DNA of 64,000 nt from Salana multivorans. Its GTDB lineage: Bacteria > Actinomycetota > Actinomycetes > Actinomycetales > Beutenbergiaceae. Numbering within the stretch: the first letter of the stretch is position 1; each line of letters begins with the position of its first letter. Of this stretch, positions 82 through 36,754 are shown piece after piece. The stretch spans positions 1,054,001 to 1,118,000 of the forward strand of contig NZ_RKHQ01000001.1 in the NCBI RefSeq assembly GCF_003751805.1, read 5' to 3'. A program made the position numbers and the translations under genes. A model generated the notes under the pieces. The model was not told the origin of the DNA. It saw only the letters and a program-made list of their open reading frames with translations, and searched no databases.

Positions 82-95
82 CCCGGGCGGTCGGG

Positions 96-2763: not shown

Positions 2764-2889
2764 GCGCCTTCTCGTTCCTCCGGCGCTCGTCCGGCGAGCG
2801 TCCGACTCCGTTGCCCCGACGCCGCGATCGTACGACCGGCGGCGCCTGCGCGCCCGTCGAACGGTGGTCAGCCGGGCGGCGGGCGCGGC

Positions 2890-3819
2890 TCAGCCGGTAC
2901 GCGTCTGCAGCAGCTCGTTGATCCGGGCCGTCAGCTCGTGGTCGACGGGCACGGCGACCCCGTCGACCGCGTTGACCGGGGCTGCGAGCCGCACGCTCGA
3001 CATGAGCCAGGCGGCGTCGGCCGCCGCGAGCTCGGGAACGCGCACGTCCCGCTCCTCGCCGCGCAGGCCGAGGTCGTCCAGCGACGCGAACAGGTCCTCC
3101 TGCGTCGTGCCGGGCAGCACCCCGACCTCCGGCGGCGGCGTCACGAGCGTGTCGCCGATGCGCAGCACGAGGGTCGACGTCGGCCCCTCGAGCAGGTAGC
3201 CGTCGGGTGTCGTGAACACGACGTCCTGCGCTCCGCGGCGCACCGCCTCCCGCACGGCCGCGCGGTTGACGGCGTAGGCGAGCGTCTTGGCCCCGGCCAG
3301 CAGCCACGGCGAGGTCGCCGGGACCGTCCTGGCGTAGCCGCGGTCGAGCAGCACGACCGCGATCCCCTCGGTCCGCGCGGCGGTGAAGTCGCCGGAGAGC
3401 GTCGCGTACGCCCAGCCGATCGGGCCGACGTCCGTCAGCTCCTCGTCGCCGCGCGACAGGCAGTACTTGACGTACGCCTCGGCCCCGGGCGGGAGGTCGA
3501 GCGCGGCGACGGCGGCGCGGGTGGCCGCCCGGTAGACGTCGAGGTCGGGCTCGGGCAGGTCGAGCATCGCGGCCGAGCGGGCGAACCGGTGCAGGTGCCG
3601 CTCCTCGGAGTGGATGACCCCGTCGCGGACCGTCGCGCTCTCGAAGATCCCGTCGCCCCTGGTCACCGCCAGGTCCGTCACCCGAAGCTGCGGGGAGCGC
3701 GCGGGGACCAGCCGGAACGCGGGGGGCGCCTCGGCCGAGGTCGCGTCCGCGGCGGACGAGCGGCAGGGGCGGTCGATCATCGCGAGGACGGCCGGCGGCG
3801 CGGCGAGGTCGTGAGCCAT
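2890..3819 (-). CDS. Class IV aminotransferase (4-amino-4-deoxychorismate lyase / BCAT-like)
   Basis: A PLP enzyme of fold type IV, about 309 residues. Visible blocks are VTRGDGIFESATVRDG near the N-terminus, AGAKTLAYAVNRAAVREA (containing the PLP lysine region), GYLLEGPTSTLVLRIG, and LPGTTQEDLF, which fit PabC/IlvE-type proteins. The likely activity is release of 4-aminobenzoate for folate synthesis, with D-amino-acid or branched-chain transamination as alternatives. The ATG at 3817-3819 was preferred over one 11 codons upstream because the upstream start leaves little room for the promoter of the divergent MFS gene. Confidence 0.8.
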   Translation of the reverse strand: MAHDLAAPPAVLAMIDRPCRSSAADATSAEAPPAFRLVPARSPQLRVTDLAVTRGDGIFESATVRDGVIHSEERHLHRFARSAAMLDLPEPDLDVYRAATRAAVAALDLPPGAEAYVKYCLSRGDEELTDVGPIGWAYATLSGDFTAARTEGIAVVLLDRGYARTVPATSPWLLAGAKTLAYAVNRAAVREAVRRGAQDVVFTTPDGYLLEGPTSTLVLRIGDTLVTPPPEVGVLPGTTQEDLFASLDDLGLRGEERDVRVPELAAADAAWLMSSVRLAAPVNAVDGVAVPVDHELTARINELLQTRTG

Positions 3820-7288: not shown

Positions 7289-7761
7289 CGCAGGGCCGCC
7301 TCGATCGCGTCGACGACCGGGACCTGACCCGCGACGAGGACGTCCCGGGCCCGGTCGAACCGGCAGAACTCGACCCGGTCGATCTCCGGGTAGGACTGGA
7401 CGCGACCCGACCGGGGCGGCCACTCCAGCTCGAAGGTGTTGGAGACGAAGTCCGCCTCGGCCCACGGCACCGGGTCGCGCTCGACGCCGAGGTAGACCCG
7501 CGCGACCTTGCCGCTCGTCACCCGGAAGTCGCCGAGGTCGGTCAGCACCCGGTCCTGCGGCCAGACGTACCCCGTCTCCTCCGCCAGCTCGCGTCGGGCG
7601 GCGGACGCCGGGTCCTCGTCATCGCCGTACAGCCCCTTGGGGATCGACCACGACCGCTCCCTGCGCGTCCACAGCGGGCCGCCCATGTGCCCGAGCAGGA
7701 CCTCGGGGCCGGCCTCGCGCAGGCGCACCACCGCGAGCGCCGCGCTCCTCACCGTTGCCAC
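7282..7761 (-). CDS. NUDIX hydrolase
   Basis: A 159-residue protein with a complete NUDIX box: G, then E, then REL-AEE-TG within GLYGDDEDPASAARRELA and the following EETGY. This motif binds divalent metal and hydrolyses nucleoside diphosphates linked to another group. The N-terminal block AALAVVRLRE and the SIPKG before the box are typical of small NUDIX proteins resembling diadenosine-polyphosphate hydrolases. A GTG at 7759-7761 was chosen because the open frame further upstream overlaps the neighbouring gene's C-terminus. The substrate is unknown. Confidence 0.88.
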   Translation of the reverse strand: MATVRSAALAVVRLREAGPEVLLGHMGGPLWTRRERSWSIPKGLYGDDEDPASAARRELAEETGYVWPQDRVLTDLGDFRVTSGKVARVYLGVERDPVPWAEADFVSNTFELEWPPRSGRVQSYPEIDRVEFCRFDRARDVLVAGQVPVVDAIEAALRG

Positions 7762-7793
7762 GCGCCCATCCTTCCCGATCGGTCCACCGGGGC

Positions 7794-8522
7794 TCAGCCG
7801 CGGCCGGTCGCCGAGGCGAAGCCGAGCCAGGTGTGCCGGTTGCGCCACCAGCACCAGCCGACCTTCGGCGCACCGCGCCGCTCGACGCCGTCGCGTCCGG
7901 TGCCCCCGCTGATCCACAGGGCCGGCGTCCGCGCGTCGAACGCGCCGCGCGGGCGCGGCTTGCGGGTCGCGAGGCACATGAAGCAGTGGTTGGGCTCGAG
8001 CCGGCTCGGGTCCTGCATCAGCCAGCCGATCCCCTCGTGCAGCGTCAGGGGCGTGCGACCTCGACCGGTCAGCTCCGCGAGCGCCTCCTCCGGCGACGCG
8101 CCCCGCAGGTCGTCGCCCCGGTCCGCGCCCCGGACGACGTAGAGCGCGCGGTCCGGCAGCTCGACGTCGGGCACGGTCCGGAAGTCCTCCAGGTCCGTCC
8201 AGTCGACGACGACGAAGCCCGGACGGCCGGCGCGCTCCAGCAGCGGGGCCAGCGCTCGCGCCGGGACGAGGTCGGGGTGGATGGCGAGGAGCAGGGGATC
8301 GTCCGCGCCCGGGACGTCGGACGCGCCGATCCCCTCGTCACCGACGACGGCCGCGACCGTCGAGCGCAGCTCCGCCTCGGGCACCCCCGCCAGGTCGGCG
8401 AGGCCGAGAGCGAGGAGCCGGTCGAGCTGGACGTCGAGCGCGGGCAGCGTCGTCGGGGTCGGCCGGGTGGGGGTCGGCTGGGCGGTCGTCGGCCGGGTCG
8501 TGCTCGTCTGGGTCGTGGTCAC
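7794..8522 (-). CDS. DUF5701-like protein of unknown function
   Basis: A soluble protein of about 242 residues that resembles the actinobacterial DUF5701 family. The first 30 residues are a Thr/Pro-rich low-complexity run from a GTG at 8520-8522. The body contains FVVVDWTDLEDF and, near the C-terminus, NHCFMCLATRKPRPR with a closely spaced Cys pair, then a Trp-rich GWCWWRNRHTWLGF. The Cys pair and aromatic cluster suggest a bound metal or a rigid fold, but no catalytic activity can be inferred. It lies just upstream of the NUDIX gene in the same direction. Confidence 0.6.
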   Translation of the reverse strand: MTTTQTSTTRPTTAQPTPTRPTPTTLPALDVQLDRLLALGLADLAGVPEAELRSTVAAVVGDEGIGASDVPGADDPLLLAIHPDLVPARALAPLLERAGRPGFVVVDWTDLEDFRTVPDVELPDRALYVVRGADRGDDLRGASPEEALAELTGRGRTPLTLHEGIGWLMQDPSRLEPNHCFMCLATRKPRPRGAFDARTPALWISGGTGRDGVERRGAPKVGWCWWRNRHTWLGFASATGRG

Positions 8523-8683
8523 GGGCGCTCCTCGCGTCGGGGGCCGGCGTCGCGCGCGCCGGACGGGTGACAACGCCGCGCGGCAGCTCCCTGTTCCCGG
8601 ACGCGACGGCACCCGACCGGCGCCGGGGCCGGACGTAGGACAATGGGGCGCAGTCCTCAGCACCCACCCCTCCGGAGCCACGC

Positions 8684-11239
8684 ATGTTCGCCATGTCGGA
8701 CGGACGCCCCGCGCCCGCGAACCCCGCCGCCGTCGTCCAGGGCGACACGTACCGCTTCACCGTCCTCACCCCGCGGCTCATCCGGATGGAGTGGAGCCCC
8801 GACGGCCGGTTCGTCGACGAGCGCTCGCAGCTCGTGGTCGACCGCGACTTCCCGGTGCCGGCGTTCACGGTGACGCAGGTGCCGGGCGGCGGCCTGGAGA
8901 TCCTCACGGACTACCTGCGCCTGCGCTACGACGGCGGCGAGTTCACCAGCGGCGGCCTGTCGGTCACGCTGACCCGCGACGCCCTCGACGCCCACTACTC
9001 CGTGTGGCACTACGGGATGAGCTACCCGCAGGACCTCCCGTTCCGCGGCAACCTGCTCGGCACGGCCCGCACGCTCGACGAGGTCGACGGCGCCACGGAG
9101 CTCGACGAGGGCATCCTCTCGACGTTCGGGTTCGCGCTCGTCGACGACTCCCACTCCGTCCTGCTGTCCGACGACGGCTGGATCACGCCCCGCCCCGACG
9201 GCGGCGCGGGCCGCAAGGACCTCTACCTCCTCGCCTACGGCCGCGACATCCGGGGCGCGTTCGACGCCTACCACCACCTGACCGGCCCGACGCCGCTCGT
9301 CCCCCGGTACACGCTGGGGAACTGGTGGAGCCGCTACTGGCGCTACACCGAGGACTCCTACGTCGAGCTGATGGACCGGTTCCGCGACGAGGGCGTCCCG
9401 CTGAGCGTGTCGGTCATCGACATGGACTGGCACCAGGTGGACGTCGACCCCGAGATCGGCACCGGCTGGACGGGGTACTCCTGGGACCGCGAGCTGTTCC
9501 CGGACCCCGAGCGCTTCCTCGCCGCCCTGCACGAGCGCGGCCTCGCGGTGACCCTCAACGTCCACCCGGCCGACGGCGTGCGCCGGCACGAGGACGCCTA
9601 CCCCGAGATGGCGCGCGCCCTCGGCATCGACCCGGCCAGCGGCCTCCCGGTCGGCTTCGACATCACCGACCGCACGTTCGTCGACGCTTACCTGCGACTG
9701 CTCCACCACCCGCTGGAGGAGCAGGGCGTCGACTTCTGGTGGCTCGACTGGCAGTCGGGCGGCGTCACCTCGGTGCCCGGGCTGGACCCGCTGTGGATGC
9801 TCAACCACATCCACTTCCGCGACTCCGGGCGCGAGCGCACCGACGGGGCACGTCGTCCGCTCACGTTCTCGCGGTACGCCGGCCTCGGCAGCCACCGCTA
9901 CCCCGTCGGCTTCTCCGGCGACACGATCATCACGTGGGACTCGCTCGACTTCCAGCCGTACTTCACGAACACGGCGGCGAACGTCGCCTTCACGTGGTGG
10001 TCGCACGACATCGGCGGCCACATGTTCGGCGGCCGCGACGTCGAGATGGCCACGCGCTGGTACCAGTACGGCGTGTTCTCCCCGATCAACCGGCTCCACT
10101 CGTCCAACAGCCCGTTCACGACGAAGGAGCCGTGGGCGTTCGGACCGCGCGCGCAGGGGATCATGTCGCGGTTCCTGCGGCTGCGGCACCGCCTCGTGCC
10201 CGCGCTGTACACGGCGGCGTGGGCCGCGCACGCGGACAACGTCGCGGTCGTGCGGCCGATGTACCACGACCACCCCGACCGGGTCGAGGCCCGCACGATC
10301 CCGAACCAGGCGATGCTGGGCGAGCACCTGCTCGTCGCGCCGATCACGCGGCCGGAGGAGCCCGCGTCCGGGCTCGGCACGACGCGCGCCTGGCTGCCGG
10401 AGGGCGGCTGGTTCGACCTGTTCACGGGTCAGCGCTACCGCGGCGGCCGGTTCGCCACGTTCCACCGCCCGCTCGAGGTCTACCCGGTCCTCGCGCGCGC
10501 CGGCGCCGTCCTGCCGCTCGCGGCCGACCCGTTCGCGCCCGTCGGCGACGTGCCCGACGCGCTCGAGCTGCGCGTCTTCCCCGGCGACGGGGTCTCCCAC
10601 CTGGTCGAGGACCACGGCGAGGCCGCGCCGGGTCTGGCGGACCGGAACGTCACGCGGTTCGTCCAGACGCTCACGACCGGCGACGCGGGCGAGGCGGGCT
10701 ACGGGGCCGGGCGCCTCGCGGACCTGGTCCTGCGCATCGAGCCGACCACCGGGCCGGACCCGCTCGCGGTGCGCGAGGTGACGCTCGACGTCGTCGGGGC
10801 GGTGCGCGTCGAGCGCGTCGTGCTGGCGCCGTTCGGGGCGCTCGGGACGCCGGCGGCCGACGACGAGGACGCCGCCGCGGGCGCGAGCGGCGCCGACCTG
10901 CCGACGGTCGAGCTGTCCGGGACCGACGCCTCCGTCGTCGCGGTGCACCGGGACGAGCTGCTGGCGCCGGCCCTGCGCGTGCGGCTCGGCGAGGTCGACC
11001 TGGCCCGCGGGCTCGAGGTGCGGCTGATCGGGCTCGAGGCGGCGCCCGACACGCTGGTCGAGGACACCTTCGCCCTGCTCGACGCGGCGGAGATCCCGTT
11101 CTGGAACAAGGAGCACGCCTGGCGCACCGTCAAGGAGCTGACCGGGCTCGAGCTGGCGCAGGAGATCGGCGCACTGCAGATCCCGGCCGCGCTGCGCGGA
11201 GCGCTGATCGAGCGCGCCGCCGTCGTGCGCCCCTGGTAG
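8684..11239 (+). CDS. Glycoside hydrolase family 31 (alpha-glucosidase/alpha-xylosidase type)
   Basis: An 851-residue retaining alpha-glycosidase. The order is a beta-sandwich N-domain (1-200), a (beta/alpha)8 barrel with SVIDMDWH near residue 250, the nucleophile motif WWLDWQ with Asp355, and the later barrel block TWWSHDIGGHMFGG, then C-terminal beta domains. WLDWQ rather than WIDMNE puts it in the subgroup seen in many actinobacterial and Bacteroides GH31 enzymes, so the exact alpha-linkage cannot be named. There is no signal peptide, so it acts in the cytoplasm. The extension after residue 690 includes a disordered Ala/Asp-rich linker. The gene stands alone, divergent from the DUF5701-like gene. 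Confidence 0.9.
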   Translation: MFAMSDGRPAPANPAAVVQGDTYRFTVLTPRLIRMEWSPDGRFVDERSQLVVDRDFPVPAFTVTQVPGGGLEILTDYLRLRYDGGEFTSGGLSVTLTRDALDAHYSVWHYGMSYPQDLPFRGNLLGTARTLDEVDGATELDEGILSTFGFALVDDSHSVLLSDDGWITPRPDGGAGRKDLYLLAYGRDIRGAFDAYHHLTGPTPLVPRYTLGNWWSRYWRYTEDSYVELMDRFRDEGVPLSVSVIDMDWHQVDVDPEIGTGWTGYSWDRELFPDPERFLAALHERGLAVTLNVHPADGVRRHEDAYPEMARALGIDPASGLPVGFDITDRTFVDAYLRLLHHPLEEQGVDFWWLDWQSGGVTSVPGLDPLWMLNHIHFRDSGRERTDGARRPLTFSRYAGLGSHRYPVGFSGDTIITWDSLDFQPYFTNTAANVAFTWWSHDIGGHMFGGRDVEMATRWYQYGVFSPINRLHSSNSPFTTKEPWAFGPRAQGIMSRFLRLRHRLVPALYTAAWAAHADNVAVVRPMYHDHPDRVEARTIPNQAMLGEHLLVAPITRPEEPASGLGTTRAWLPEGGWFDLFTGQRYRGGRFATFHRPLEVYPVLARAGAVLPLAADPFAPVGDVPDALELRVFPGDGVSHLVEDHGEAAPGLADRNVTRFVQTLTTGDAGEAGYGAGRLADLVLRIEPTTGPDPLAVREVTLDVVGAVRVERVVLAPFGALGTPAADDEDAAAGASGADLPTVELSGTDASVVAVHRDELLAPALRVRLGEVDLARGLEVRLIGLEAAPDTLVEDTFALLDAAEIPFWNKEHAWRTVKELTGLELAQEIGALQIPAALRGALIERAAVVRPW

Positions 11240-11257
11240 CCGAGCCCGGGTCCGACA

Positions 11258-11334
11258 CCCCCGCGCTCCGATATCGGGGTGGGTTCGATCGCGATTCGCG
11301 ACCCGATCCACCCCACTGTCGGAGTGGGCGGGGG
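11258..11334 (+). terminator. Long inverted repeat after the GH31 gene
   Basis: CCCCCGC (11258-11264) pairs with GCGGGGG (11328-11334), CTCCGA (11266-11271) with TCGGAG (11319-11324), and GGGGTGG with CCACCCC inside. This gives a nested stem-loop about 77 bases long starting 18 bases after the GH31 stop. It is the most likely terminator of that gene. Confidence 0.6.
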
Positions 11335-11453
11335 CGGTCGGGCTCGACGTGTCGTGACGGGGGCCACAGCTCCTGCGAAGGTTCCGTGAGCGTGCGCACC
11401 GGTCGACCGCCCTGCCCTCGCCGTCGGCCGGACGTTCCGTTACGGTCGAGGGC

Positions 11454-12422
11454 GTGACTTCTCATCGGCGGCCCGGCGCGGGCCGGATCGCTGTCGGCGC
11501 CGGCGTCCTCGCGGGCGTCCTGCTCGCAGCCGGCGGCGGCGTCCTCAACGCGCTCGACGCGCGCGCGGCGTCGGCCCAGCTCGCCGACCCGGCGTCGACC
11601 TCGGACACGGTGGACGGAACCGCGGTCAGCGCGGACGTCCCCCTGCTCAACACCGAGCTCGAGGCCCGCGACCTCGTCGCCCTCACCCCCGCCTCGCGCG
11701 GGGAGGCCCGCGCCGCCCTGGCGGACGGGGAGGGCGTGACGTTCGGCGTCGTCGTCGACGGCGAGACCCGCGACGTCACGACGCAGGCCGCGACGCTGGC
11801 CGACGCGCTCGCCGAGGCCGGGATCGTTCTGGGCTGGGACGACGTCGTCGACGCCGACCTCAGCGCTCCGCCGCAGGCGGGGACGACGGTCACGGTCGGC
11901 CGGTCCAGCGTCGAGACGGTCACCGAGGACGTGACGACGCCGCACACGAGCGAGACTCGCGAGACCTCGTCGCTCGCCAAGGGCGAGACCCGCGTCGTCC
12001 AGGCCGGGGTCGACGGGTTCGCGCAGGTGACCAGCCGGGTGTCGTTCGTCGACGGGACCGAGGTCGCGCGCACCCAGCTCGCGTCGGTCGAGACCACGCC
12101 GGCGGTGCCCGAGATCGTCGAGGTCGGCACGCGCGTCGGGCCCGCGAAGCTCTACACGCTCAGCCAGTTCATGAGCGCCGGCGTCGTCACGTGGGGCGGG
12201 TACAAGTTCACCTACTACTCGCAGAGCGTGCTGCCGGGCGGCGGGCTGTCGATCCCCGGCCGGCACGTCAACGAGGACGGGTACGTGAGCGACGGCGACG
12301 GCTACATCGTGCTCGCCAGCTCCGCCGCGAAGGGGACCGTCATCGACACCCCGTTCGGGTACCAGGGCAAGGTCTACGACCGCGGGACCGTCGGCAACCA
12401 CTACGACGTCTACGTGCGCTGA
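11454..12422 (+). CDS. Secreted DUF348/G5/3D-like domain protein
   Basis: A 322-residue exported protein. It has a signal peptide or single membrane anchor (RIAVGAGVLAGVLLAAGGGV after a basic start), a DUF348-like segment around residues 95-150 (FGVVVDGETRDVTTQAATL), and a G5 domain around 150-230 (SVETVTEDVTTPHTSET and ETRVVQAGVDG). Its C-terminal domain has a 3D-like pattern (YTLSQFMSAGVVTWGGYKFT, ending PFGYQGKVYDRGTVG). The architecture is that of resuscitation-promoting-factor relatives and YabE-type proteins that act on peptidoglycan. The usual Rpf lysozyme domain is replaced by the C-terminal 3D-like one. It starts with GTG. A wall-binding or muralytic role is inferred. Confidence 0.75.
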   Translation: MTSHRRPGAGRIAVGAGVLAGVLLAAGGGVLNALDARAASAQLADPASTSDTVDGTAVSADVPLLNTELEARDLVALTPASRGEARAALADGEGVTFGVVVDGETRDVTTQAATLADALAEAGIVLGWDDVVDADLSAPPQAGTTVTVGRSSVETVTEDVTTPHTSETRETSSLAKGETRVVQAGVDGFAQVTSRVSFVDGTEVARTQLASVETTPAVPEIVEVGTRVGPAKLYTLSQFMSAGVVTWGGYKFTYYSQSVLPGGGLSIPGRHVNEDGYVSDGDGYIVLASSAAKGTVIDTPFGYQGKVYDRGTVGNHYDVYVR

Positions 12423-19012: not shown

Positions 19013-20020
19013 ATGTCACGCAGCAGCCGGACCGGCGACGCGATCCGCGTCGGCGTGCTGGGGTTCGGGCGCTGGGGTCGGACCTGGCTCCCGGTCCTCG
19101 AGGCGGAGCCCGACGTCGAGGTCGTCGCCGTCGCAGGCGGACTGTCCGGCGCGACGGGCCCGTCCGGCGCGTCCTCCCACCCGACGCTGCGTACCGGCGT
19201 GCGCCACGTCGGGCGATGGGAGGACGCGCTGGACGATCTCGACGCCGTCCTCGTCACCCTGCCGGTGCCGCTGCACCTCGCGGCGGCGCGCGAGGCGGCC
19301 GCTCGGGGCCTCCACGTGCTCCTGGAGAAGCCCGCCGTGCTCGCTCGCGGCGAGCTGGCCGCGCTGGAGGACGTCGCGGCGCGCGCCCCCGGGGTCGTCA
19401 TGGTCTGCCAGAACTACCGCGAGCGCCCCTGGGCGCGCCGGGTGCGCGTCGAGCTCACGACGCTAGGGCCGCTCACGCACGTCACGGTCGAGATCGCCCG
19501 ACGGGAGCTCCTCGACGGCGGCCGGGGCGCCCTGGCCCACCCGCTGCTGGACGACCTTGCCATCCACCACGTCGACCTCCTTCGCCACCTCACCGGGCAG
19601 GAGGCCGAGGTGCTGGCCGCCACCAGCTCACGACCGCCGTGGACCAGCTACGACGGCACCCCCGACGCCGCGGCGCTCCTGCGCCTGTCCGGCGGCGCGA
19701 CGGTCGCGATGCACGGCACGTGGGCGGCCCGCGGCCGCGAGACCCCGTACGACGGCGACTGGACGTTCCGGGGCGAGCGCGGGCTCGTCGAGGTGCGCGA
19801 CCTCGCGGTGCTCCGGGACGACCAGGTCGTGGCTCCCGCCCGCGCGGTGACGCCGGGTGTCCACGACGACACCGACCTCGCGGACGTCCTGCGCACGTTC
19901 CTCGCCGGGATCGCGGGGGTGCCCGTGCTGACGGACGTCGCCGAGCACGCCCGCAGCCTCCGACTGCTCCTCGACCTGCGCGACGCCACCGGGTTGCCGC
20001 CCCTGGGGGACGCGACATGA
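19013..20020 (+). CDS. Gfo/Idh/MocA family oxidoreductase
   Basis: A 335-residue NAD(P)-dependent sugar dehydrogenase. The Rossmann motif is GVLGFGRWGRTWLPVLEAEP, the conserved EKP is in LLEKPAV, and the C-terminal domain carries LDDLAIHHVDLLRHLTG, with the His-rich helix of the active site. Such enzymes oxidise or reduce a ring carbon of sugars, inositols or 3-keto-glycosides. A strong AGGAGG precedes the ATG. Its stop overlaps the next start (ATGA), so it is coupled to the LacI regulator. Confidence 0.88.
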   Translation: MSRSSRTGDAIRVGVLGFGRWGRTWLPVLEAEPDVEVVAVAGGLSGATGPSGASSHPTLRTGVRHVGRWEDALDDLDAVLVTLPVPLHLAAAREAAARGLHVLLEKPAVLARGELAALEDVAARAPGVVMVCQNYRERPWARRVRVELTTLGPLTHVTVEIARRELLDGGRGALAHPLLDDLAIHHVDLLRHLTGQEAEVLAATSSRPPWTSYDGTPDAAALLRLSGGATVAMHGTWAARGRETPYDGDWTFRGERGLVEVRDLAVLRDDQVVAPARAVTPGVHDDTDLADVLRTFLAGIAGVPVLTDVAEHARSLRLLLDLRDATGLPPLGDAT

Positions 20021-21111
20021 CCGGGACGACGCACCGCCGCACGTCCGAGCCCGCCGACCGACCGACCGATCCGGCCCGCGCCCCGCGGATGGCCGACGTC
20101 GCCCGCCTCGCCGGGGTGTCGCCGCAGACCGTCTCGCGCGTCATCAACGGCCACCCCAACGTCTCGGCCGAGGTCCGCGAGCGGGTGCAGCAAGCCGTCG
20201 TGGCGCTGCGCTACCGTCGCAACCCGGCCGCCCGCTCACTGGCGACCCGGCGCACGATGAGCCTCGGCGTCGTCACCTACGGCCTGGCGCAGCACGGGCC
20301 GTCCGTCGCCCTGACCGGGATCGCGGACGCCGCGCGCCAGGCCGGCTACACGACGAACCTCGTCGGCCTGGTCGAGCTGGACCGTGCGGCCCTGCGCCGG
20401 GCGCTCGGCCACCTCATGGACGACTACGTCGACGGGATCGTGCTCCTGGCCCCGGTCGACGATGCAGTCCACGCGGTCGCGGGGCTGCACACCGAGGTGC
20501 CGCTCGTCATCTTCGAACCCGGCGCCCCGCCGCGGCCGGCGGGGTTCGCGGCGCACGAGGTGCTCGGAGCCCGGCTCGCGACGCAGCACCTGCTCGACAT
20601 CGGTCACGAGACCGTCCTCCACCTGTCCGGGCCTGCCGGGTGGCTCGCCACGACGGCCCGGATCCGCGGGTGGCGCGAGGCTCTGTCCGATGCGGGTCGG
20701 CACGCCCCCGCACCCGTCGCCACGAGCTGGACGGCGGCGTCCGGGTTCGAGGCTGTCGACCGGGTGATCGCCTCGGGCTCGACCGCCGTCTTCGCGGCCA
20801 ACGACCAGACGGCCCTCGGGCTGATCCGCGGTCTCACCGAGCACGGCGTCCGCGTCCCGGAGGACGTCTCGGTCGTCGGCTTCGACGACTTCCCCGAGTC
20901 GGAGTACTTCTCCCCGCCCCTGACCACCGTGCGCGTCGACTTCGCCGCGCTCGGCCGGCTCGCCGTGCGCAAGCTCCTCGCGCTCATCGAGGGCGAGGAG
21001 GTCAGCGACCCGCTCACCCCACCAACGCTCGTCGTCCGCGCCAGCACGGGAACGCCCCCGGCGACGTCGTCGACCCCACCGATCCCCACCACTCCCAAGG
21101 AGAACCCATGA
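20017..21111 (+). CDS. LacI family regulator
   Basis: A 364-residue repressor. The N-terminal helix-turn-helix ([20 protein letters not shown], about residues 25-45) and hinge region (RRNPAARSLATRR) are followed by a periplasmic-binding-like effector domain ending in VSVVGFDDFPESEYFSPPLT. It is coupled to the upstream dehydrogenase (ATGA overlap) and to the downstream aldo/keto reductase (again ATGA). It is closely similar along its length to the LacI at 24654, so both may recognise the TTGATAGCGCTATCAA palindrome before the importer. Confidence 0.92.
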   Translation: MTGTTHRRTSEPADRPTDPARAPRMADVARLAGVSPQTVSRVINGHPNVSAEVRERVQQAVVALRYRRNPAARSLATRRTMSLGVVTYGLAQHGPSVALTGIADAARQAGYTTNLVGLVELDRAALRRALGHLMDDYVDGIVLLAPVDDAVHAVAGLHTEVPLVIFEPGAPPRPAGFAAHEVLGARLATQHLLDIGHETVLHLSGPAGWLATTARIRGWREALSDAGRHAPAPVATSWTAASGFEAVDRVIASGSTAVFAANDQTALGLIRGLTEHGVRVPEDVSVVGFDDFPESEYFSPPLTTVRVDFAALGRLAVRKLLALIEGEEVSDPLTPPTLVVRASTGTPPATSSTPPIPTTPKENP

Positions 21112-24541: not shown

Positions 24542-24653
24542 GGGTGCGGCTGGACCCGGCGGTGGGATCGCGCGGCACCGTCGGCGCATCCTCCCCTAGG
24601 CTCCCCCACAGGGCGCGCGACCGGCGCGCTCGGCTGATCGAGGGAGTCGAGAC

Positions 24654-25712
24654 GTGGGAGAGCCAGCCGCGCGGACACCCCGGATGGCTGACGTCGCGCG
24701 GCTCGCCGGGGTCTCCGTCCCCACCGTCTCCCGCGTCGTCAACGGCTACACCCACGTGACGCCGGAGGTGCGCGAGCGTGTCCAGCAGGCCATCGCCCAG
24801 CTCCGCTACCGACCGAACTCGGTCGCGCGCGCGCTCGTGACCAACCGGACGAAGCGCCTCGGCGTCATCACGTACGCCCTGTCGGTGACGAGCCCGTCGC
24901 TGGCACTCCTCGGGGTGTCGGAGGAGGCGCGCGCCGCGGGGTACTCGACGAACCTCGTGACGCTCGACTCGGTGAGCCCAGAGAGCGTGCGGTCGGCGCT
25001 GGCGCACCTGGCGGACGACGCGGTCGACGGCGTGATCCTGCTCGCCCCGATGGTCGAGACCACCCACTCGCTGGCCGGGCTCGACCTTCCGATGCCCGTC
25101 GTGTCGTTCGAGCAGGGGGCGACGGGTGCGGACGCCGCCGTCGCGCTGGACGAGGTGCTCGCGGCGCGACTCGGCACCCGGCACCTGCTCGACCTGGGAC
25201 ACGACACGGTCCACTTCGTCCGCGGGCCCGATGGCTGGATGGCCACCGAGGCGCGCGAGCAGGGCTGGCGCCGCGAGCTGACCATCGCTGGCTGCCACGC
25301 GCCGGAGCCGATCCCGTGCGAGGACTGGAGCGTCGCCTCCGGCTACCGCGCGGGGCAGCGGCTGGCGACGACGACGGGCGTGACGGCCGTGCTGGTCTCC
25401 AACGACGCGATGTGCCTCGGCGTCTACAGGGCGCTGGCCGAGGCGGGGCTGCGGGTGCCGGACGACGTCTCGGTCGTGGGATTCGACGACGCTCCCGAGT
25501 CCGCCTACTACCTGCCGCCGCTCACGACGCTACGGCTCGACTTCGAGGCGGCCGGACGCTCGGCGCTCCGACGGCTCCTGCGCATGCTCGGCGACGGAGG
25601 CAGCGACGGCGGGACGGAGGCCGTCGACCCACCGGCCCCGGAGCTGGTGGTGCGATCGTCGACGGCGCCGCCCCGCAGTCACGTCGGCGCGGACTCCGAC
25701 CGGGGCGCGTGA
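24654..25712 (+). CDS. LacI family regulator (second copy in the island)
   Basis: A 352-residue repressor starting with GTG. The HTH is [20 protein letters not shown], and the hinge is RPNSVARALVTNR. The effector domain ends VSVVGFDDAPESAYYLPPLT. It shares sequence throughout with the LacI at 20017 (for example RERVQQA, GYSTNLV/GYTTNLV and VDGVILLAP/VDGIVLLAP), which suggests an old duplication. It has its own 112-base upstream region, so it may be transcribed separately from the catabolic genes. Confidence 0.92.
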   Translation: MGEPAARTPRMADVARLAGVSVPTVSRVVNGYTHVTPEVRERVQQAIAQLRYRPNSVARALVTNRTKRLGVITYALSVTSPSLALLGVSEEARAAGYSTNLVTLDSVSPESVRSALAHLADDAVDGVILLAPMVETTHSLAGLDLPMPVVSFEQGATGADAAVALDEVLAARLGTRHLLDLGHDTVHFVRGPDGWMATEAREQGWRRELTIAGCHAPEPIPCEDWSVASGYRAGQRLATTTGVTAVLVSNDAMCLGVYRALAEAGLRVPDDVSVVGFDDAPESAYYLPPLTTLRLDFEAAGRSALRRLLRMLGDGGSDGGTEAVDPPAPELVVRSSTAPPRSHVGADSDRGA

Positions 25713-25775: not shown

Positions 25776-25867
25776 GGAGACGTCGCATAGTCAGGTCTAG
25801 TGCGCATCCCTGCTAAGGATGTGAGGGTGCAAGCCCTCCGTGGGTTCAAATCCCACCGTCTCCGCCA
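25776..25867 (+). tRNA. tRNA-Ser (anticodon GCT)
   Basis: Acceptor stem GGAGACG pairs with CGTCTCC (25857-25863), followed by discriminator G and encoded CCA. The anticodon stem CATCC/GGATG encloses loop CTGCTAA with anticodon GCT at 25812-25814. A long variable arm (GAGGGTGCAAGCCCTC) marks it as tRNA-Ser. The T loop GTGGGTTCAAATCCCAC is canonical. Confidence 0.97.
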
Positions 25868-25872
25868 TCGCC

Positions 25873-26214
25873 CTAGAGGCAGAACGTGTTGCCCTCGGGG
25901 TCCGTCATGACGGCCCACGCGCCGTTGCTGTCGCTGCGACGCTCGAGGAGTCGCCCGCCCAGCTCCTCGACCCGCGCGATCGCGTCTTCGCGGTCGGCAA
26001 CCTGGCAGTCGAGGTGCACCCGGTCCTGGCGATCCGGGACGGCGCCGGTCCTCTGGAAGAGCAGCCGGACGTGCCCCTCGCCCGGGTCGACCAGCACGAA
26101 CCCGTTGCCGGCGTCCCGCGGGACGCCTCCGACGAGGTGCGCCCAGAACCGGGCCAGGCCCTCGGGGTCGGGCGAGTTGATCGTGACGCAGTCGACGCGG
26201 ACGAACGGGGCCAT
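25873..26214 (-). CDS. VOC/glyoxalase-like protein
   Basis: A 113-residue single-domain protein of the vicinal-oxygen-chelate superfamily. It begins RVDCVTINSPDPEGLARFWAHL, has VHLDCQVADREDAIARVEELG in the middle, and ends AVMTDPEGNTFCL. Conserved His and Glu positions that could bind a metal are present in part. This subgroup (glyoxalase-like domain) is widespread in actinobacteria and mostly of unknown substrate. It converges on the tRNA gene, ending six bases from it. Confidence 0.85.
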   Translation of the reverse strand: MAPFVRVDCVTINSPDPEGLARFWAHLVGGVPRDAGNGFVLVDPGEGHVRLLFQRTGAVPDRQDRVHLDCQVADREDAIARVEELGGRLLERRSDSNGAWAVMTDPEGNTFCL

Positions 26215-26301
26215 GGCGCGAGGCTAGTCCCCCGCACCGGCCCGGCCCCGGGACCAACGTTCCTCCCGCCCCGCCGGACGCCCCCGCCTACAGTGAGCGC
26301 C

Positions 26302-27147
26302 ATGCACCTCGACCCCGCACGGCTCGCGCCCGTCGTCGACGACGACACCGTGGGCGACCTGCGCGCCTGGACCGACGTCGACCTGCCCGGCCTCGACCGT
26401 CGCGCCGACCTCTCCGTCTGGCTGCCGAGCGGCTACGACGACGCGGCCGCGAGCGCCCGCCGCTACCCCGTCGTCTACCTGCACGACGGCGGCAACCTGT
26501 TCCTCCGCGCGACCTCGTTCGCCGGAGCGACCTGGCGCGTCGGCGAGGCGATGAGCGCCCTCGACGCGGAGGGGATCCCCGCCATCGTCGTCGGCATCCC
26601 GAGCCACCCGACCGACCGCGCGGGCGAGTACACGCCGCACCCCCACGCCGAGCACGGCGGCGGACGCGTCGAGGAGTACGCCGTCTTCCTCGCGGACCAC
26701 CTCAAGCCGGCGATCGACCGCGCCCTGCGCACGGAGCCGGGGCCGACCTCGACGATCGTCGCGGGAAGCTCGCTCGGCGCGATCGCCAGCGCCTACCTGT
26801 GGCAGACCCGGCCCGAGTCCTTCGGCGGCGCGGGCCTGTTCTCCACCTCGTTCTGGTTCCCCGGCGAGCGCGCCATCGACGACCTCGCCGCTGCCCTGCG
26901 CGAACCGCGCACCGGCGCCCGCGTCTACCTCGACGTCGGCGGGCGCGAGGGCGCGAACGCGTTCGAGGCCGAGGTCCAGGTCTCCACCTCCGAGCTGGCG
27001 CTGCGCGCCCTGCGCGCCTCCGACGTCCCGGTCCGCTACGTCTACGACTCGACGGCCCCGCACCACGAGGACGCCTGGGCCGAGCGCCTCCCGGCCGCGC
27101 TGCGCTGGCTGCTCGCCGGCTGGGACGCGGGACGGCCCCGCGGGTAG
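26302..27147 (+). CDS. Putative esterase (alpha/beta hydrolase, Fes/EstD type)
   Basis: A 281-residue cytoplasmic alpha/beta hydrolase of the esterase D/enterochelin esterase family. The nucleophile elbow is VAGSSLGAIASAYLW (G-x-S-x-G). The strand-turn VVYLHDGGNLF is typical of the family, and a late His lies in APHHEDAWAERLP. The ATG at 26302 fits the family start. It could cleave acyl-sugars or siderophore esters. Between a VOC gene and the cohesin gene it has no operon partner. Confidence 0.85.
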   Translation: MHLDPARLAPVVDDDTVGDLRAWTDVDLPGLDRRADLSVWLPSGYDDAAASARRYPVVYLHDGGNLFLRATSFAGATWRVGEAMSALDAEGIPAIVVGIPSHPTDRAGEYTPHPHAEHGGGRVEEYAVFLADHLKPAIDRALRTEPGPTSTIVAGSSLGAIASAYLWQTRPESFGGAGLFSTSFWFPGERAIDDLAAALREPRTGARVYLDVGGREGANAFEAEVQVSTSELALRALRASDVPVRYVYDSTAPHHEDAWAERLPAALRWLLAGWDAGRPRG

Positions 27148-27303: not shown

Positions 27304-28131
27304 ATGAGCCCTGCCCCGACGCGACCGTCCCGGGGGTGGCGCCAGCGCCCCGGCGCGACCGCTGGCCGACGCGCAACCACGAGCACCACGCCCGCCCGCA
27401 CCGCCACGCCGATCCGCACCATCGCGGTCCTCGCGCTCGCGACGCTGACCGCGACGATCGCCCCGGCTGCGCTCGCGGCGCCGTCCACGTCGACCCTCAC
27501 GATCACGGCGCCGGCGGAGGTGGCGGTCGAGGAGACCGTCTCCGTCGTCGTCGACCTGGGTGAGGTCACGGACCTCTACTCCTACGCCCTCGACCTCGCC
27601 TACGACGCCGACGTCCTCACGTTCGTCTCCGCGACCGCGCCCGACGGCGGCTTCGACTCGACCGACGCCGACGGCGGACGGGTCGCGGTCGTGCACTCCC
27701 GCCTCGGCACCTCGCCCGGGCTCGCCGGCGAGCTGTCCGTCGAGCTGGTCTTCACCGCCTCCGCACCCGGCGACTCCCAGCTCGTCGTCACCGCGCTCGA
27801 CCTGGTCGGCTCCGACGGCGAGGTCTCCTCGCCCGAGACGCTGCCCGAGACGACCGTGACCGTCCTCGCGCCAGCGCCGTCGGTCTCCCCGTCCCCCTCA
27901 CCGACGACCTCGGCCTCCCTGTCCGCCTCCCCGACGACCTCGGACGGCGCGTCAGGCCCGTCCTCGACGACCGGGTCCGCCCCCGACCCCACCGACACCG
28001 CGACCTCCGGCTCCTCCGGCGGTCGCCTCTCCTCCACCGGCGCCGACGTGCTCCCGCTCCTCCTGGGCGCGCTCGCGCTCACCGGCCTCGGCGCGTTCCT
28101 CGCCGTGCGGCGGAAGGCGGCGCGGCGATGA
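27304..28131 (+). CDS. Wall-anchored cohesin-domain protein
   Basis: A 275-residue exported protein. It has a long signal peptide (basic Arg-rich region, then TIAVLALATLTATIAPAALA, cut near residue 58). One cohesin-like beta-sandwich follows at about residues 62-185, with VSVVVDLGEVTDLYSYALDL and YDADVLTFVSATA matching the cohesin core. A Ser/Pro/Thr linker leads to a sorting signal at the C-terminus: LSSTG, a hydrophobic segment and the basic tail RRKAARR. LSSTG is a variant of the sortase motif LPxTG/LAxTG. It is immediately upstream of a dockerin-bearing amidase, so it is the likely surface receptor for that enzyme. Confidence 0.8.
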   Translation: MSPAPTRPSRGWRQRPGATAGRRATTSTTPARTATPIRTIAVLALATLTATIAPAALAAPSTSTLTITAPAEVAVEETVSVVVDLGEVTDLYSYALDLAYDADVLTFVSATAPDGGFDSTDADGGRVAVVHSRLGTSPGLAGELSVELVFTASAPGDSQLVVTALDLVGSDGEVSSPETLPETTVTVLAPAPSVSPSPSPTTSASLSASPTTSDGASGPSSTTGSAPDPTDTATSGSSGGRLSSTGADVLPLLLGALALTGLGAFLAVRRKAARR

Positions 28132-28181
28132 CCACCCAGCCCGGAGCCCCCGGTCCGACTCCCCCGACCTCGGAGGTCCCC

Positions 28182-30014
28182 ATGCGAGCTGCGCATCGCG
28201 CCCGTCCCATCGTCGCCGTCCTCGCCGTCGGCACCGCGCTCGGCGTCGGCACCGCCCTCCCCGCCTCGGCGGCACCGGTCACGCCGGCCACCGCACCGAT
28301 GCTCGCCCCCTTCTACACGGAGCTGGACCTCACGGGTGACGCCATGGTCACCGTCGCCGACCTCGACGTCGTCGCCGCCGGGCTCGGCGCCGTGAGCGGC
28401 GACGCAGCGTGGAACCCGATCGCCGACGTCGACGGGGACGGGATCCTGACCGTCGCCGACCTGGCGGCGGTCTCGGGACGCATGATCTACGACGACGGGC
28501 CGTTCGAGCTGGTCGAGGCGAGCCTCGTCGACATGCAGGCGGCGATGAACGCGGGCGTCATCACGTCGGCGGACCTGACCTCGGCCTACCTCGAGCGCAT
28601 CGACGCCTACGACACCCGCGTGCCGTCCGGCGGCCGGGCGCTGAACTCGGTCATCACCGCCTCGACGACCGCCGCGCTGACGGCCGCCGCCGAGGCGGAC
28701 GCCGTGCGCGCCGAGGAGGGGATGACGAGCCTGCTGCTGGGGATCCCGGTCGGCCTCAAGGACAACATCGACACGTTCGACCTGCCGACGACCGCGGGCT
28801 GCGCCTGCTGGGAGACCAACCAGACGGCCACCGACGCCACGATCGCGGCGGCGCTGCGCGAGGCGGGGGCCGTCATCGTCGCGAAGACGAGCCTCGACGA
28901 GTTCGCGTTCGGGTTCGTCTCGGAGTTCTCGGCGTTCCTGCCCGGCCCGCCGGGAACGGTCCCGCAGACGACGGCGCTGGTCGCCAGCCCGTACGTGACG
29001 ACCCAGAGCGCCGGCGGCTCCTCGGGCGGGACCGGCGCCGCGGTCGCCGCGAGCCTGGTGGCCGTCGGCTTCGGCACCGACACCGGCGGCTCGATCCGCG
29101 TCCCGTCCTCCTACAACCAGCTCGTCGGCATCCGTCCGACGGTCGGCCTGGTCAGCCGCTCCGGCATCGTCCCGCTGGCGCTCAGCCAGGACACCGCCGG
29201 GCCCCTCGGACGCTCGGTGACGGACGCCGCCGTTGCGCTCGACGCGGTGGTGGGCGTCGACGGGACCGACCCGGTGACGCAGGCGCAGGCCGGTCTCGTC
29301 CCGGAGAGCTACACCGCCTCCCTCGACACCGGCGCGCTCGACGGTGCCCGGATCGGCTACGTCCCCGCGATGGTCGGCACCAACCCGACGACGGTCCGGC
29401 TCTTCCAGCAGGCCCTCGCCGACCTCGAAGACGCGGGCGCCGTCGTCGTCCCGGTGACGCCCCCGTCCGGGTTCGCCGCGGTCCTCGCCGAGCCCAGCGG
29501 CTCGACGAACGAGTTCCGCCACGACCTGGACGCCTACATCGCAGCCAACCTCGACCCGGCCGTCCCCTACCGGAGCCTGCAGGAGATCATCGACTCCGGT
29601 CGGTTCGTCACGGGCCGCCAGGGCTCCTACGTCGCCCGCGCCGCGGTGACCGACGAGACGTACGAGGGGTGGGCCGGTCCCGACGGAACGCACACGCTCG
29701 CGCTCGCCGCCGGCAAGGAGCTGGTGACGGGCATGCTGGACGACGCCGGGCTCGACGCCCTGGTGTACCCGAGCACCAACCCCTACGCGTCGCTCTCGAC
29801 CAACATGCGGCTCAGCCCCAACACGGGGATGCCGGCCGTGACGGTGCCGATGGGCCAGGCGACGCCAGAGGACGGGACCATCGCCGGCGCCGGGGTCAAC
29901 CTGGAGCTGCTCGGGCGCGACTTCGACGAGGGCGGACTGCTCGGCCTGGCGTTCGCCTACGAGCAGGCGACCCAGCACCGCGTCACGCCGACGGGCTACG
30001 GCCCGCTCGGCTGA
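28182..30014 (+). CDS. Secreted amidase with N-terminal dockerin
   Basis: A 610-residue exported enzyme. The start is the ATG at 28182, five bases after GGAGG; an ATG 18 codons upstream overlaps the cohesin stop but lacks this site. The signal peptide ends LPASAAP. Residues about 48-103 are a dockerin with two calcium-binding F-hand repeats, DLTGDAMVTVADL and DVDGDGILTVADL. From about residue 110 there is an amidase-signature domain with catalytic K193 (GLKDN), cis-Ser280 (AGGSSGG) and nucleophile S304 (GTDTGGSIRVP), with the usual 24-residue spacing of the two serines. The substrate is an unknown amide outside the cell. Confidence 0.88.
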   Translation: MRAAHRARPIVAVLAVGTALGVGTALPASAAPVTPATAPMLAPFYTELDLTGDAMVTVADLDVVAAGLGAVSGDAAWNPIADVDGDGILTVADLAAVSGRMIYDDGPFELVEASLVDMQAAMNAGVITSADLTSAYLERIDAYDTRVPSGGRALNSVITASTTAALTAAAEADAVRAEEGMTSLLLGIPVGLKDNIDTFDLPTTAGCACWETNQTATDATIAAALREAGAVIVAKTSLDEFAFGFVSEFSAFLPGPPGTVPQTTALVASPYVTTQSAGGSSGGTGAAVAASLVAVGFGTDTGGSIRVPSSYNQLVGIRPTVGLVSRSGIVPLALSQDTAGPLGRSVTDAAVALDAVVGVDGTDPVTQAQAGLVPESYTASLDTGALDGARIGYVPAMVGTNPTTVRLFQQALADLEDAGAVVVPVTPPSGFAAVLAEPSGSTNEFRHDLDAYIAANLDPAVPYRSLQEIIDSGRFVTGRQGSYVARAAVTDETYEGWAGPDGTHTLALAAGKELVTGMLDDAGLDALVYPSTNPYASLSTNMRLSPNTGMPAVTVPMGQATPEDGTIAGAGVNLELLGRDFDEGGLLGLAFAYEQATQHRVTPTGYGPLG

Positions 30015-30093
30015 TCTGTCCAGCTCGGCCGACCTCGGCCGGGGTCGATCCGGGGGGCGACACCGCCCGGACCGACCCCGGCGGTGGTAGGAT

Positions 30094-30110
30094 GACCGAA
30101 ACTTTCGGTC
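30094..30110. promoter_or_regulatory. LacI-family operator (autoregulatory)
   Basis: GACCGAAACTTTCGGTC is a perfect 8-1-8 inverted repeat of the CGAAA-N-TTTCG type. It directly follows a TAGGAT (30088-30093) that could be the -10 box, so it would cover the transcription start of the LacI gene at 30142. Confidence 0.65.
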
Positions 30111-30141
30111 GATCGACCGCGGGGCTCGGGAAGCAGGTGAC

Positions 30142-31143
30142 ATGCGCGGTCGGAGGGTCACCATCGCGGACGTCGCCGAGGCGGTCGGCGTCTCCGTCCC
30201 CACCGTGTCGAAGGTCCTCAACGGCCGCGCCGACGTCGCCCCGGAGACCCGCCGGCGCGTGGAGCGCGAGCTCGAGACGACGGGCTACCGACGCCGCTCG
30301 AGCTCGACGTCCTCCCAGCTCGAGCTCGTCATCCACGACATCGACACGTCCTGGTCCCTCGAGCTGATCAAGGGCGTCGAGGAGGTCGCGTCCGCCGCAG
30401 GGATCGGGGTCGTCCTCACGACGCTGCACGGGCGCCACCAGCCGTCCCAGTCGTGGACCGAGGGCGTCCTCCTCCGGCGGCCGATCGGCGTCATCATGGT
30501 CATGTCGGTGCTGGCCGACGTGCAGTACGAGCTGCTGGCGGCCCGCTCCATCCCCGCCGTCGTCGTCGACACTTTCGGAGCGCCGCCCGCGGCGGTCCCG
30601 ACCGTCGGCTCCAACAACTGGTTCGGCGGGCTCGACGCCACGCGCCACCTGCTGGCGCTCGGCCACCGGCGGATCGGGATGATCTCCGGTCCGGACGCGA
30701 TGATGTGCTCGCGCGCCAGGGTCGACGGGTACCGGAGCGCGCACGACGAGCTGGACGTGCCGTGCGACCCCCAGCTCGTGCGCTGGGGCAACTTCGAGGT
30801 CAGCGGCGGCTACGAGCACGCCCGGTCGCTGCTCTCCCTCCCGCACCCTCCGACCGCCATCTTCGCCGGGTCGGACCACCAGGCGGTCGGCGTCATGCGC
30901 GCGGCTCGCGAGCTCGGGCTGCGGGTGCCCGAGGACCTCTCGATCGTCGGCTACGACGACCTCCCGTTCGCCGACTGGCTCGCGCCCCGGCTCACCACGG
31001 TCGACCAGCCGCTCCAGCAGATGGCGGCGGAGGCGACGATCATGCTGCTCGACCTGCACCGCGGCGCGGTGGCGAGGTCGCCGCGCGTCGACCTCGCCAC
31101 CGCGCTCGTGGTCCGCGAGTCGACCGCGCCGCCGGGCGGCTGA
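30142..31143 (+). CDS. LacI family regulator
   Basis: A 333-residue repressor with HTH VTIADVAEAVGVSVPTVSKVLN at the very N-terminus and an effector domain containing LVIHDIDTSWSLELIKGVEE and LSIVGYDDLPFADWLAPRLT, resembling actinobacterial xylose/xyloside-type LacI proteins. The perfect GACCGAAACTTTCGGTC repeat 31 bases before its start implies autoregulation. It converges with the Gfo/ThuA operon; whether it controls that operon or distant genes is not shown by the sequence. Confidence 0.92.
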   Translation: MRGRRVTIADVAEAVGVSVPTVSKVLNGRADVAPETRRRVERELETTGYRRRSSSTSSQLELVIHDIDTSWSLELIKGVEEVASAAGIGVVLTTLHGRHQPSQSWTEGVLLRRPIGVIMVMSVLADVQYELLAARSIPAVVVDTFGAPPAAVPTVGSNNWFGGLDATRHLLALGHRRIGMISGPDAMMCSRARVDGYRSAHDELDVPCDPQLVRWGNFEVSGGYEHARSLLSLPHPPTAIFAGSDHQAVGVMRAARELGLRVPEDLSIVGYDDLPFADWLAPRLTTVDQPLQQMAAEATIMLLDLHRGAVARSPRVDLATALVVRESTAPPGG

Positions 31144-35623: not shown

Positions 35624-35652
35624 TATCGATAAAACTTTGTCGGCAAACCGAC
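35624..35652. promoter_or_regulatory. TATCGATA box and adjacent inverted repeat before the GH10 operon
   Basis: TATCGATA (35624-35631) sits in TTATATCGATAAAA, an AT-rich patch in a GC-rich genome, in the region between the GH10 operon and the divergent LacI gene. It shares TTTATCGATA (on the opposite strand) with the box before the GH95 gene. Just beyond it, GTCGG-CAAA-CCGAC (35639-35652) is a second small inverted repeat. Confidence 0.6.
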
Positions 35653-35746
35653 CTCGACGGCGCCGGGACGGCACAGGCCCGCGCCCCCCGTACGCTGGCT
35701 CCGGGGTCCGGACGAGGGCCGGGACCGATGGGCGCAGGAGGCGGAG

Positions 35747-36754
35747 ATGGTCACGATGAGCGACGTGGCGCGCCTCGCGGGCGTCTCCGTGATGACCGTC
35801 TCCAACGTGCTGAACGACCGCCCGTACGTCAAGACGTCGACCCGGGACCGGGTCCTGGCCGCGGTCGCCGAGCTCGGCTACGAGATCAACCTGAGCGCGC
35901 GCCACCTGCGCTCGGGCCAGACCGGGACGGTCGGGCTGATCGTGCCGCGGTTCTCCCACCCCTACTTCGCCGAGCTCGCCGACGCGCTCGCCTCGGAGCT
36001 CACCGCCAGGGGACGCCACCTCGCCGTCGAGCAGTCGGAGGCGTCGCGGGAGCACGAGCTCGCGGCGCTCTCCCGCGCGCGCCTGCAGCGCTACGACGCC
36101 GTCGTGCTGAGCGTGGCCGGCCTCGAGCGGGAGGAGCTCGCGACGCTCGCCGAGTCGCCGCCCGTCGTGCTCCTCGGCGAGCGGGAGATGCCGGCCAGGT
36201 TCGACCACCTGCAGCTCGCGAACATCGAGGGCGCCCGGCTCGCGACCACCCGCCTGCTCGACTCGGGGGCTCGCCGCGTCGCGGTCGTCGGGGGTGACCT
36301 CCAGCGCGACGACGCGACGGCCCGCCTCCGGACCGACGGCTGGATCGCGGCGCACGAGGAGCGCGGCCTGCCCGTCGACGAGCGGCTCGTGCTGAGCGAC
36401 GGACGCTACAGCGCGGAGGAGGCCCACGACGCGGTGATCGCGGCGCACGCCGCCGGCCTCGACCCGGACGGCTACTTCGCCATCACCGACGACATCGCGA
36501 CCGGCGTCCTCGCGGCGCTCCACCGGCTGGGCCGCGCGGTGCCGGAGGAGATCGGCGTCGTCGGGTACGACAACCTGGTCGCCTCGGCGTGGACCGTCCC
36601 GGCCCTCACGACGATCGACGCGGGGCGGGCCGAGGTGGCGCGCACGATCGCCGACCTCATCGAGCGGCGGATCGCCGACCCCTCGGCCTCACCCCGGCAC
36701 CTCGTCGGGCAGGTCCGCCTGATCGAGCGGGACTCGGTGGCACCCCTGCCCTGA
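35747..36754 (+). CDS. LacI family regulator
   Basis: A 335-residue repressor with [23 protein letters not shown] and effector domain [20 protein letters not shown], ending [20 protein letters not shown]. Two possible ATG starts lie three codons apart; the first follows GGAGGCGG. It is flanked by a divergent GH10/Gfo/ThuA operon and a downstream GH95 gene, both preceded by the same TATCGATA-centred box. It is therefore the likely regulator of both. Confidence 0.92.

Follow-up and report, generated by a model that had tools for sequence, protein, structure and literature searches.

The 64,000-nucleotide stretch of the Salana multivorans genome analysed here (assembly GCF_003751805.1, contig NZ_RKHQ01000001.1, positions 1,054,001 to 1,118,000; hereafter the window) contains two adjacent genes at positions 27304–30014, exactly where a preliminary description of this DNA had placed them. 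The first open reading frame (ORF; 27304..28131, 275 aa) codes for a protein with a cohesin domain and the second (28128..30014, 628 aa) for an amidase which is preceded by a dockerin region; both genes and all their features are located on the plus strand. When the signal and the linker are read from the sequence, the product of the first gene consists of a secretion signal, one cohesin, a Ser/Thr/Pro-rich linker, and a sorting-type tail. The question addressed here is whether the two gene products may together display a single enzyme at the cell surface.

The cohesin domain comprises residues 62–197 of the first protein (27487..27894). The Pfam family PF00963 matches the full protein with 27.0 bits (E=5.6e-6), which is above the cut-off of 24.1, and the domain stretch with 29.2 bits, and this is the single match of the family in the genome. 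The domain is conserved in an alignment of 27 of the 31 cohesins (A4, in which the window sequence replaces L015 and from which L019, L020, L031, and L032 were left out), and PF00963 matches 25 of these 27 family rows at E≤0.1. An AlphaFold model of residues 57–201, calculated from a 14-row alignment with the window sequence first, has a mean predicted local distance difference test score (pLDDT) of 93.9 and a predicted template modelling score (pTM) of 0.84. The top PDB rows found with Foldseek are the Clostridium perfringens cohesins 2jh2, 2w1n, and 2vo8, and most of the best 50 rows are cohesins; VIA-align yields Z values of 16.2 for 2jh2, 16.2 for 2vo8, and 16.1 for 2w1n. By sequence, a comparison of the cohesin family profile with the PDB ranks the NagJ cohesin first (E 5.6e-9). 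Thus, profile and fold both confirm that the first gene carries the single cohesin-like domain which had been read from the letters. The C-terminus of the protein likewise is as described before, with LSSTG, a hydrophobic stretch, and the basic tail RRKAARR (28027..28128) forming a putative sortase-type signal. By eye, an LxxTG-type tail is seen in 28 of the 30 actinobacterial cohesin rows, with two duplicate pairs counted, and sortases were found in all 17 genomes searched, including two in the genome of S. multivorans.

The catalytic part of the second protein is an amidase-signature domain, which according to Pfam spans residues 149–473 (28572..29546; PF01425, 263 bits, E=7e-78). The residues K211, S298/S299, and S322, which we take to be the catalytic Lys-Ser-Ser of this family, are invariant in the 18-row family alignment (A3, 18 of the 19 loci from the host order, L020 being left out), in agreement with the three catalytic residues described before. 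The dockerin region is found ahead of this domain at residues 61–123 (28308..28496) and contains two calcium-type loops. The first loop comprises residues 67–78 (28326..28361) with D67, D71, and D78 invariant in the 18 rows and the second residues 100–111 (28425..28460) with D100 and D111 invariant. The calcium loops of dockerins carry acidic side chains at positions 1, 5, and 12, and both loops of the window protein have such residues there; an exception among the relatives is L043 with N at positions 1 and 5 of loop 1. As read from the sequence, a proline-rich stretch between the signal peptide and loop 1 leaves little space for an entering helix; dockerins are not known to have such a helix ahead of loop 1.

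The two proteins are found together in the relatives. Among 24 Beutenbergiaceae genomes, the dockerin-amidase and the cohesin domain are matched in the same three genomes, and three further genomes of the family match the first gene over its linker and tail only. In the host order (396 genomes), the amidase is found at E≤1e-90 in 19 genomes and the cohesin profile at E≤1e-6 in the same 19, when the best 3 candidates per genome are scored for the amidase and the best 10 for the cohesin; the association is therefore more than chance. PF00963 itself has one match in 17 of these 19 genomes; in the other two it has none, and there the family profile detects one cohesin apiece. The adjacency is conserved as well, as in 18 of the 19 loci the cohesin lies inside the 1.5 kb flank (17 loci) or in the same frame (one fusion). 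At the 19th locus (G391) the pair is split over two contigs, the amidase starting at base 272 of C122 and the cohesin reaching to within 33 bases of the end of C58. A draw of 396 genomes across the phylum returned the pair only from S. multivorans itself, thus the pair is patchily distributed, and a search of plasmids gave a single match, to the amidase over residues 122–621.

When named genomes were scanned with the alignment of the amidase, 80 loci were obtained, 15 with a dockerin according to our own dockerin profile and 65 without. The dockerin loci are from Cellulosimicrobium (2), Oceanitalea, one Microbacteriaceae, Cellulomonas iranensis, Curtobacterium (2), Microbacterium (2), a genome labelled Frigoribacterium, Nocardioides, Oerskovia, Agreia, Leifsonia, and Paenibacillus SY21-1. 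A cohesin gene adjoins the amidase in 13 of these 15 loci, and the other two (L034 and L037) start at a contig edge. Beside the 65 dockerin-less loci no cohesin was found with our own profile (E≤1, up to 8 kb on each side, less at contig ends). Fisher's test for cohesin neighbour versus dockerin gives 4.5e-15, a value that overstates independence as the loci are related. When all sets are pooled, there are 43 distinct loci of the dockerin-amidase whose flanks can be read, and in all 43 a cohesin is adjoining or fused. Duplicates with near-zero tree branches (L019/L035, L032/L045, L024/L037, and L047/L142) are removed from this count, and L034 and the L024/L037 pair, whose relevant flank is unreadable, stand outside it; in L024 a cohesin is located at the end of another contig.

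The comparison with the Paenibacillaceae gives a hint what the pair may be used for. The amidase (E≤1e-120) is present in 70 of 245 genomes of this family, and 30 of the 73 matches in these 70 genomes were read as loci. Half of them (15/30) have a dockerin, and in every one of these a gene for a cohesin with S-layer homology (SLH) repeats lies downstream. In the other 15 the amidase protein has one or more SLH repeats of its own, and neither a dockerin nor a cohesin was found at any of them within a flank of up to 1.5 kb. The SLH profile used was built from three repeats of one protein; Pfam finds SLH above its cut-off in four named amidases. These SLH-anchored enzymes (L049, L051, L052, L055; L157–L171) are related exported amidases held at the surface, but their anchor is fused to the enzyme and no dockerin or cohesin neighbour is found. 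The simplest reading seems to be that cohesin and dockerin take over at the surface what the fused anchor does in the relatives. A second cohesin within the amidase protein is detected in 5 of the 15 dockerin loci with our own profile. In Paenibacillus SY21-1 (L047) such a cohesin is seen by Pfam, the amidase with cohesin and dockerin (7413–9707, +) being followed by a gene for a cohesin with three SLH repeats (9742–11544, +). With its 11 dockerin matches, this genome may encode a more extensive system at the surface.

The order of the two genes differs among the loci. In the window and in the majority of its relatives the cohesin gene precedes the amidase gene; the reverse order, with the cohesin downstream, is seen in L025, L031/L032/L045, L043, and the Paenibacillaceae. 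At L033, from a draft genome that is 69% complete, amidase, cohesin, and an LAVTG tail are found in one frame of 980 residues; with hmmscan amidase and cohesin are above their cut-offs and the dockerin is just below with 21.1 bits, while in the genome-wide PF00404 search it reaches 26.1 bits and over. A tree of 86 amidases (19 order loci, 15 named loci with dockerin, 22 of the 65 named loci without, and 30 Paenibacillaceae) clusters the dockerin types with a support of 0.93, the actinobacterial ones with 1.0 and those from Paenibacillaceae with 0.9, and places the SLH types outside; L053 and L085 are labelled as SLH types because they resemble L051 and L052, which are themselves confirmed by Pfam. 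The upstream order is nested inside the downstream ones, and the downstream order of L025 looks like a later switch, at weak local tree support. Judging from these loci, cohesin and amidase have stayed together across the rearrangements of their order.

In the window, the stop codon of the cohesin gene overlaps the first start codon of the amidase gene by four bases (ATGA, 28128..28131). Such an overlap is kept in 23 of the 24 loci with the upstream order, one duplicate pair (L019/L035) included, as ATGA in 18 loci and as GTGA in five, and is missing in L026. The last codon of the cohesin gene ends in A in 18 of the 24 loci, compared to 3.7% A at third positions in these genes (binomial 1.5e-21, for rows that are related). 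This conservation suggests that the translation of both genes is coupled. A second in-frame ATG of the amidase gene, preceded by GGAGG, is present at 28182. In the window as in several relatives, such an alternative start in the same frame is found about 50–60 bases further on and has the better ribosome site, and the amidase gene may use either the first or the second start.

Taken together, we consider it likely that the two genes form a dedicated module for surface display, in which a wall-fixed cohesin would hold one dockerin-tagged amidase. The cohesin protein would be exported and then fixed to the cell wall by a sortase, the amidase would leave the cell on its own and be retained at the surface through its N-terminal dockerin, and the dockerin would bind that one cohesin, presumably with calcium. 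The overlapping translation could keep cohesin and amidase in step. We infer the binding from the domain identities, the co-occurrence, and the adjacency of both genes, from the one natural fusion and the stop–start overlap, and from the alternation with SLH anchors. The one-enzyme surface complex which had been proposed from the sequence of the window is supported by the co-occurrence, by the fusion, and by the way in which direct SLH anchors alternate with the pair.

Several observations weigh against this proposal. The tail of the window protein has 13.1 bits with the LPXTG profile TIGR01167, below the cut-off of 15.9, and two actinobacterial cohesins (L025 and L043) are without a sorting tail. 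The cohesin protein of L043 (Nocardioides sp. Root1257, 9704–10855, +) has an Ig-like Big_3_5 match instead, with 32.2 bits and below its cut-off. The dockerin of the window scores 12.8 bits in the whole protein and 17.5 bits as excised region with Dockerin_1 (PF00404, cut-off 22.9). Co-variation of both proteins in 27 actinobacterial pairs is marginal in a partial Mantel test (r 0.16, p 0.05), from which L019, L020, L024, L032, and L142 were dropped as duplicates, near-duplicate, or unpaired. Over 42 pairs the test gives r 0.42 and p 0.0005, a value that is probably driven by the split between the phyla; neither result is used as support. Furthermore, a joint model of the Oerskovia amidase and its downstream cohesin has a pTM of 0.41 and a mean pLDDT of 60.6, with only four rows over the amidase, and its quality is too low for an interface to be read from it. 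It was calculated with A9 out of five alignments (A6–A10), as A6 and A7 set cohesin rows on the amidase, A8 was without amidase rows, and A10 partly misplaced its one amidase row. Finally, when the dockerin family profile is compared with the PDB, the best 60 of 339 rows are calmodulins or calmodulin fusions.

The points concerning the dockerin would also fit a different explanation, namely that the "dockerin" merely belongs to the fold of the amidase as an EF-hand-like element stabilised by calcium, that the cohesin binds something else, and that both proteins share a pathway without forming a complex. As the best PDB rows are calmodulins, the profile comparison does not discriminate, and EF-hand-like calcium binding alone remains compatible with the sequence; when a single Paenibacillus dockerin is the query, on the contrary, dockerin-type chains rank high (2y3n_B, 2.6e-5). 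Of the 14 rows of the dockerin alignment (A12, without L042, L046, and the loci from the order-wide genome set), 11 are matched by EF-hand families with a best E of 4.7e-7, whereas Dockerin_1 matches all 14 with a best E of 6.6e-10. A mere fold element is also at odds with the dockerin-less amidase relatives, which have no cohesin neighbour in the loci read (0/65 and 0/15), and with the amidase–cohesin fusion in L033. We therefore regard this explanation as improbable. Of the earlier claim of two dockerin repeats, the location of both loops stands and the orthologues pass the profile, being above the PF00404 cut-off in 15 of 19 order genomes and in 10 of 10 named genomes, whereas the window protein itself stays below it.

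Alternatively, the wall cohesin could serve as a general socket to which several proteins with dockerins bind, the amidase being only the neighbour. In this respect the order genome G065 is of interest, as it encodes a second dockerin above the cut-off on a subtilase, and the 11 dockerin matches of Paenibacillus SY21-1 point in the same direction. However, exactly one dockerin above the cut-off was found in each of the nine named actinobacterial genomes searched, as far as dockerins are recognisable by PF00404, and the genome of S. multivorans has two PF00404 matches, both below the cut-off, the better one (16.3 bits) in the amidase and the other one with 14.4 bits. A general socket thus appears very improbable to us. 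The subtilase of G065 (L172, G065:C1:2025500-2032500, 3–3113, +) has a PA domain and the dockerin at its C-terminus; G065 is the one order genome whose amidase-neighbouring cohesin is without a sorting tail, and the subtilase is possibly a second client.

Among solved structures, peptide amidase (1m21, 5ac3; E 2.7e-66) is closest to the catalytic part, but this match spans residues 124–621 only and leaves out the dockerin. From this analogy, our best guess is that the displayed amidase acts on a small or peptide amide. The substrate of peptide amidase is not transferable, as the window protein scores 335.6 with the NCBIfam equivalog PRK08137 and does not reach its cut-off of 534. A quorum-signal amide is an alternative substrate, suggested by a paper on amidase-signature enzymes (PMC3676327). 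The clearing of amides or peptide-like compounds at the cell wall, which the preliminary description gave as an example of a role, finds neither support nor contradiction in these data.

Clustering of the neighbouring ORFs of at least 120 aa from 16 loci revealed no recurring neighbour besides the cohesin–amidase pair, apart from two small groups: L036, L038, and L044 have flanks in common, and regulator-like ORFs are shared by L034, L037, and the window. The ORF just 5′ of the pair (25840–27147, +), whose C-terminal part resembles an alpha/beta-hydrolase esterase by eye, does not recur among the compared loci. Four mutually similar ORFs are located near the pair at about 20002–21108, 24600–25709, 30091–31140, and 35633–36751 (all +), and the one among them at 30142–31143 looks like a LacI-type regulator by eye.

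Non-cellulosomal cohesins and dockerins were reportedly covered by a survey in 2009. A cellulosome is characterised by a scaffoldin with several cohesins and by many dockerin enzymes, mainly glycoside hydrolases. PF00963, however, matches once in the genome of S. multivorans and no more than once in any of the 19 genomes, and the dockerin matches are the amidase and the 14.4-bit candidate; the cohesin–amidase pair is not a cellulosome. By sequence as well as by fold, the window cohesin is closest to the C. perfringens cohesins of NagJ/GH84C (2jh2, 2w1n, 2ozn) and GH33 (2vo8), which are found outside cellulosomes as well. According to the structure titles, these are modules of glycoside hydrolases, whereas the window cohesin is part of a small tail-anchored non-catalytic protein and the dockerin is on the amidase.

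Surface cohesins and non-glycosidase cargo of dockerins are already known. The LPxTG-tailed scaffoldin cSca5 of the mucinolysome (PMC12997984) is a cohesin on a wall-anchored protein, but such surface-anchoring scaffoldins hold the scaffoldins of a multi-enzyme complex, whereas here there is one cohesin and, for the majority of the genomes searched, one dockerin protein. A review from 2025 states that dockerin-borne proteases may be held at the cell surface, and for the dockerin-bearing S8 protease dDoc_0689 of C. thermocellum it proposes this through a cell-bound cohesin (PMC12484212). That protease comes from an organism that makes cellulosomes and has numerous cohesins and dockerins, in contrast to the adjoining one-enzyme pair in actinobacteria. 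Since both have been described, neither the surface cohesin nor the non-glycosidase cargo is new, and the view of the preliminary description that the pair is a different use of cohesin and dockerin has to be tempered.

A dockerin-amidase with an adjacent cohesin was not found described in the titles and abstracts retrieved by searches of open-licence literature, nor did these searches reveal a dedicated one-enzyme cohesin–dockerin pair in actinobacteria. The main text of a 2024 survey of cellulosome bacteria is without the word-beginnings Actinobacter, Actinomycet, Cellulosimicrobium, and amidase and lists Paenibacillus guangzhouensis among the scaffoldin-containing microbes (PMC11557425). 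The translated genome of Cellulosimicrobium cellulans F16 (PMC4562250) and three sequenced cellulomonads (PMC3544764) are reported to be without dockerins and cohesins. The dockerin-amidases in other members of Cellulosimicrobium and Cellulomonas (L034, L037, L039) qualify this reported absence.

We lean towards the view that a minimal cohesin–dockerin system exists in two phyla, including Cellulosimicrobium and Cellulomonas, with one wall socket and one enzyme encoded by a co-translated two-gene unit, where a non-covalent and possibly calcium-releasable link would replace the fused anchor; some amidases of the Paenibacillaceae contain a cohesin themselves and could thus line up head to tail from the SLH-anchored cohesin. 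The pairing of cohesin and dockerin has mostly been studied as the glue of multi-enzyme polysaccharide complexes. If our proposal is true, actinobacteria would use it simply for the display of an enzyme, as a one-to-one tether, and a natural minimal pair would be available for engineering. It would also open the question why a non-covalent link is used where the relatives of the enzyme have a fused anchor.

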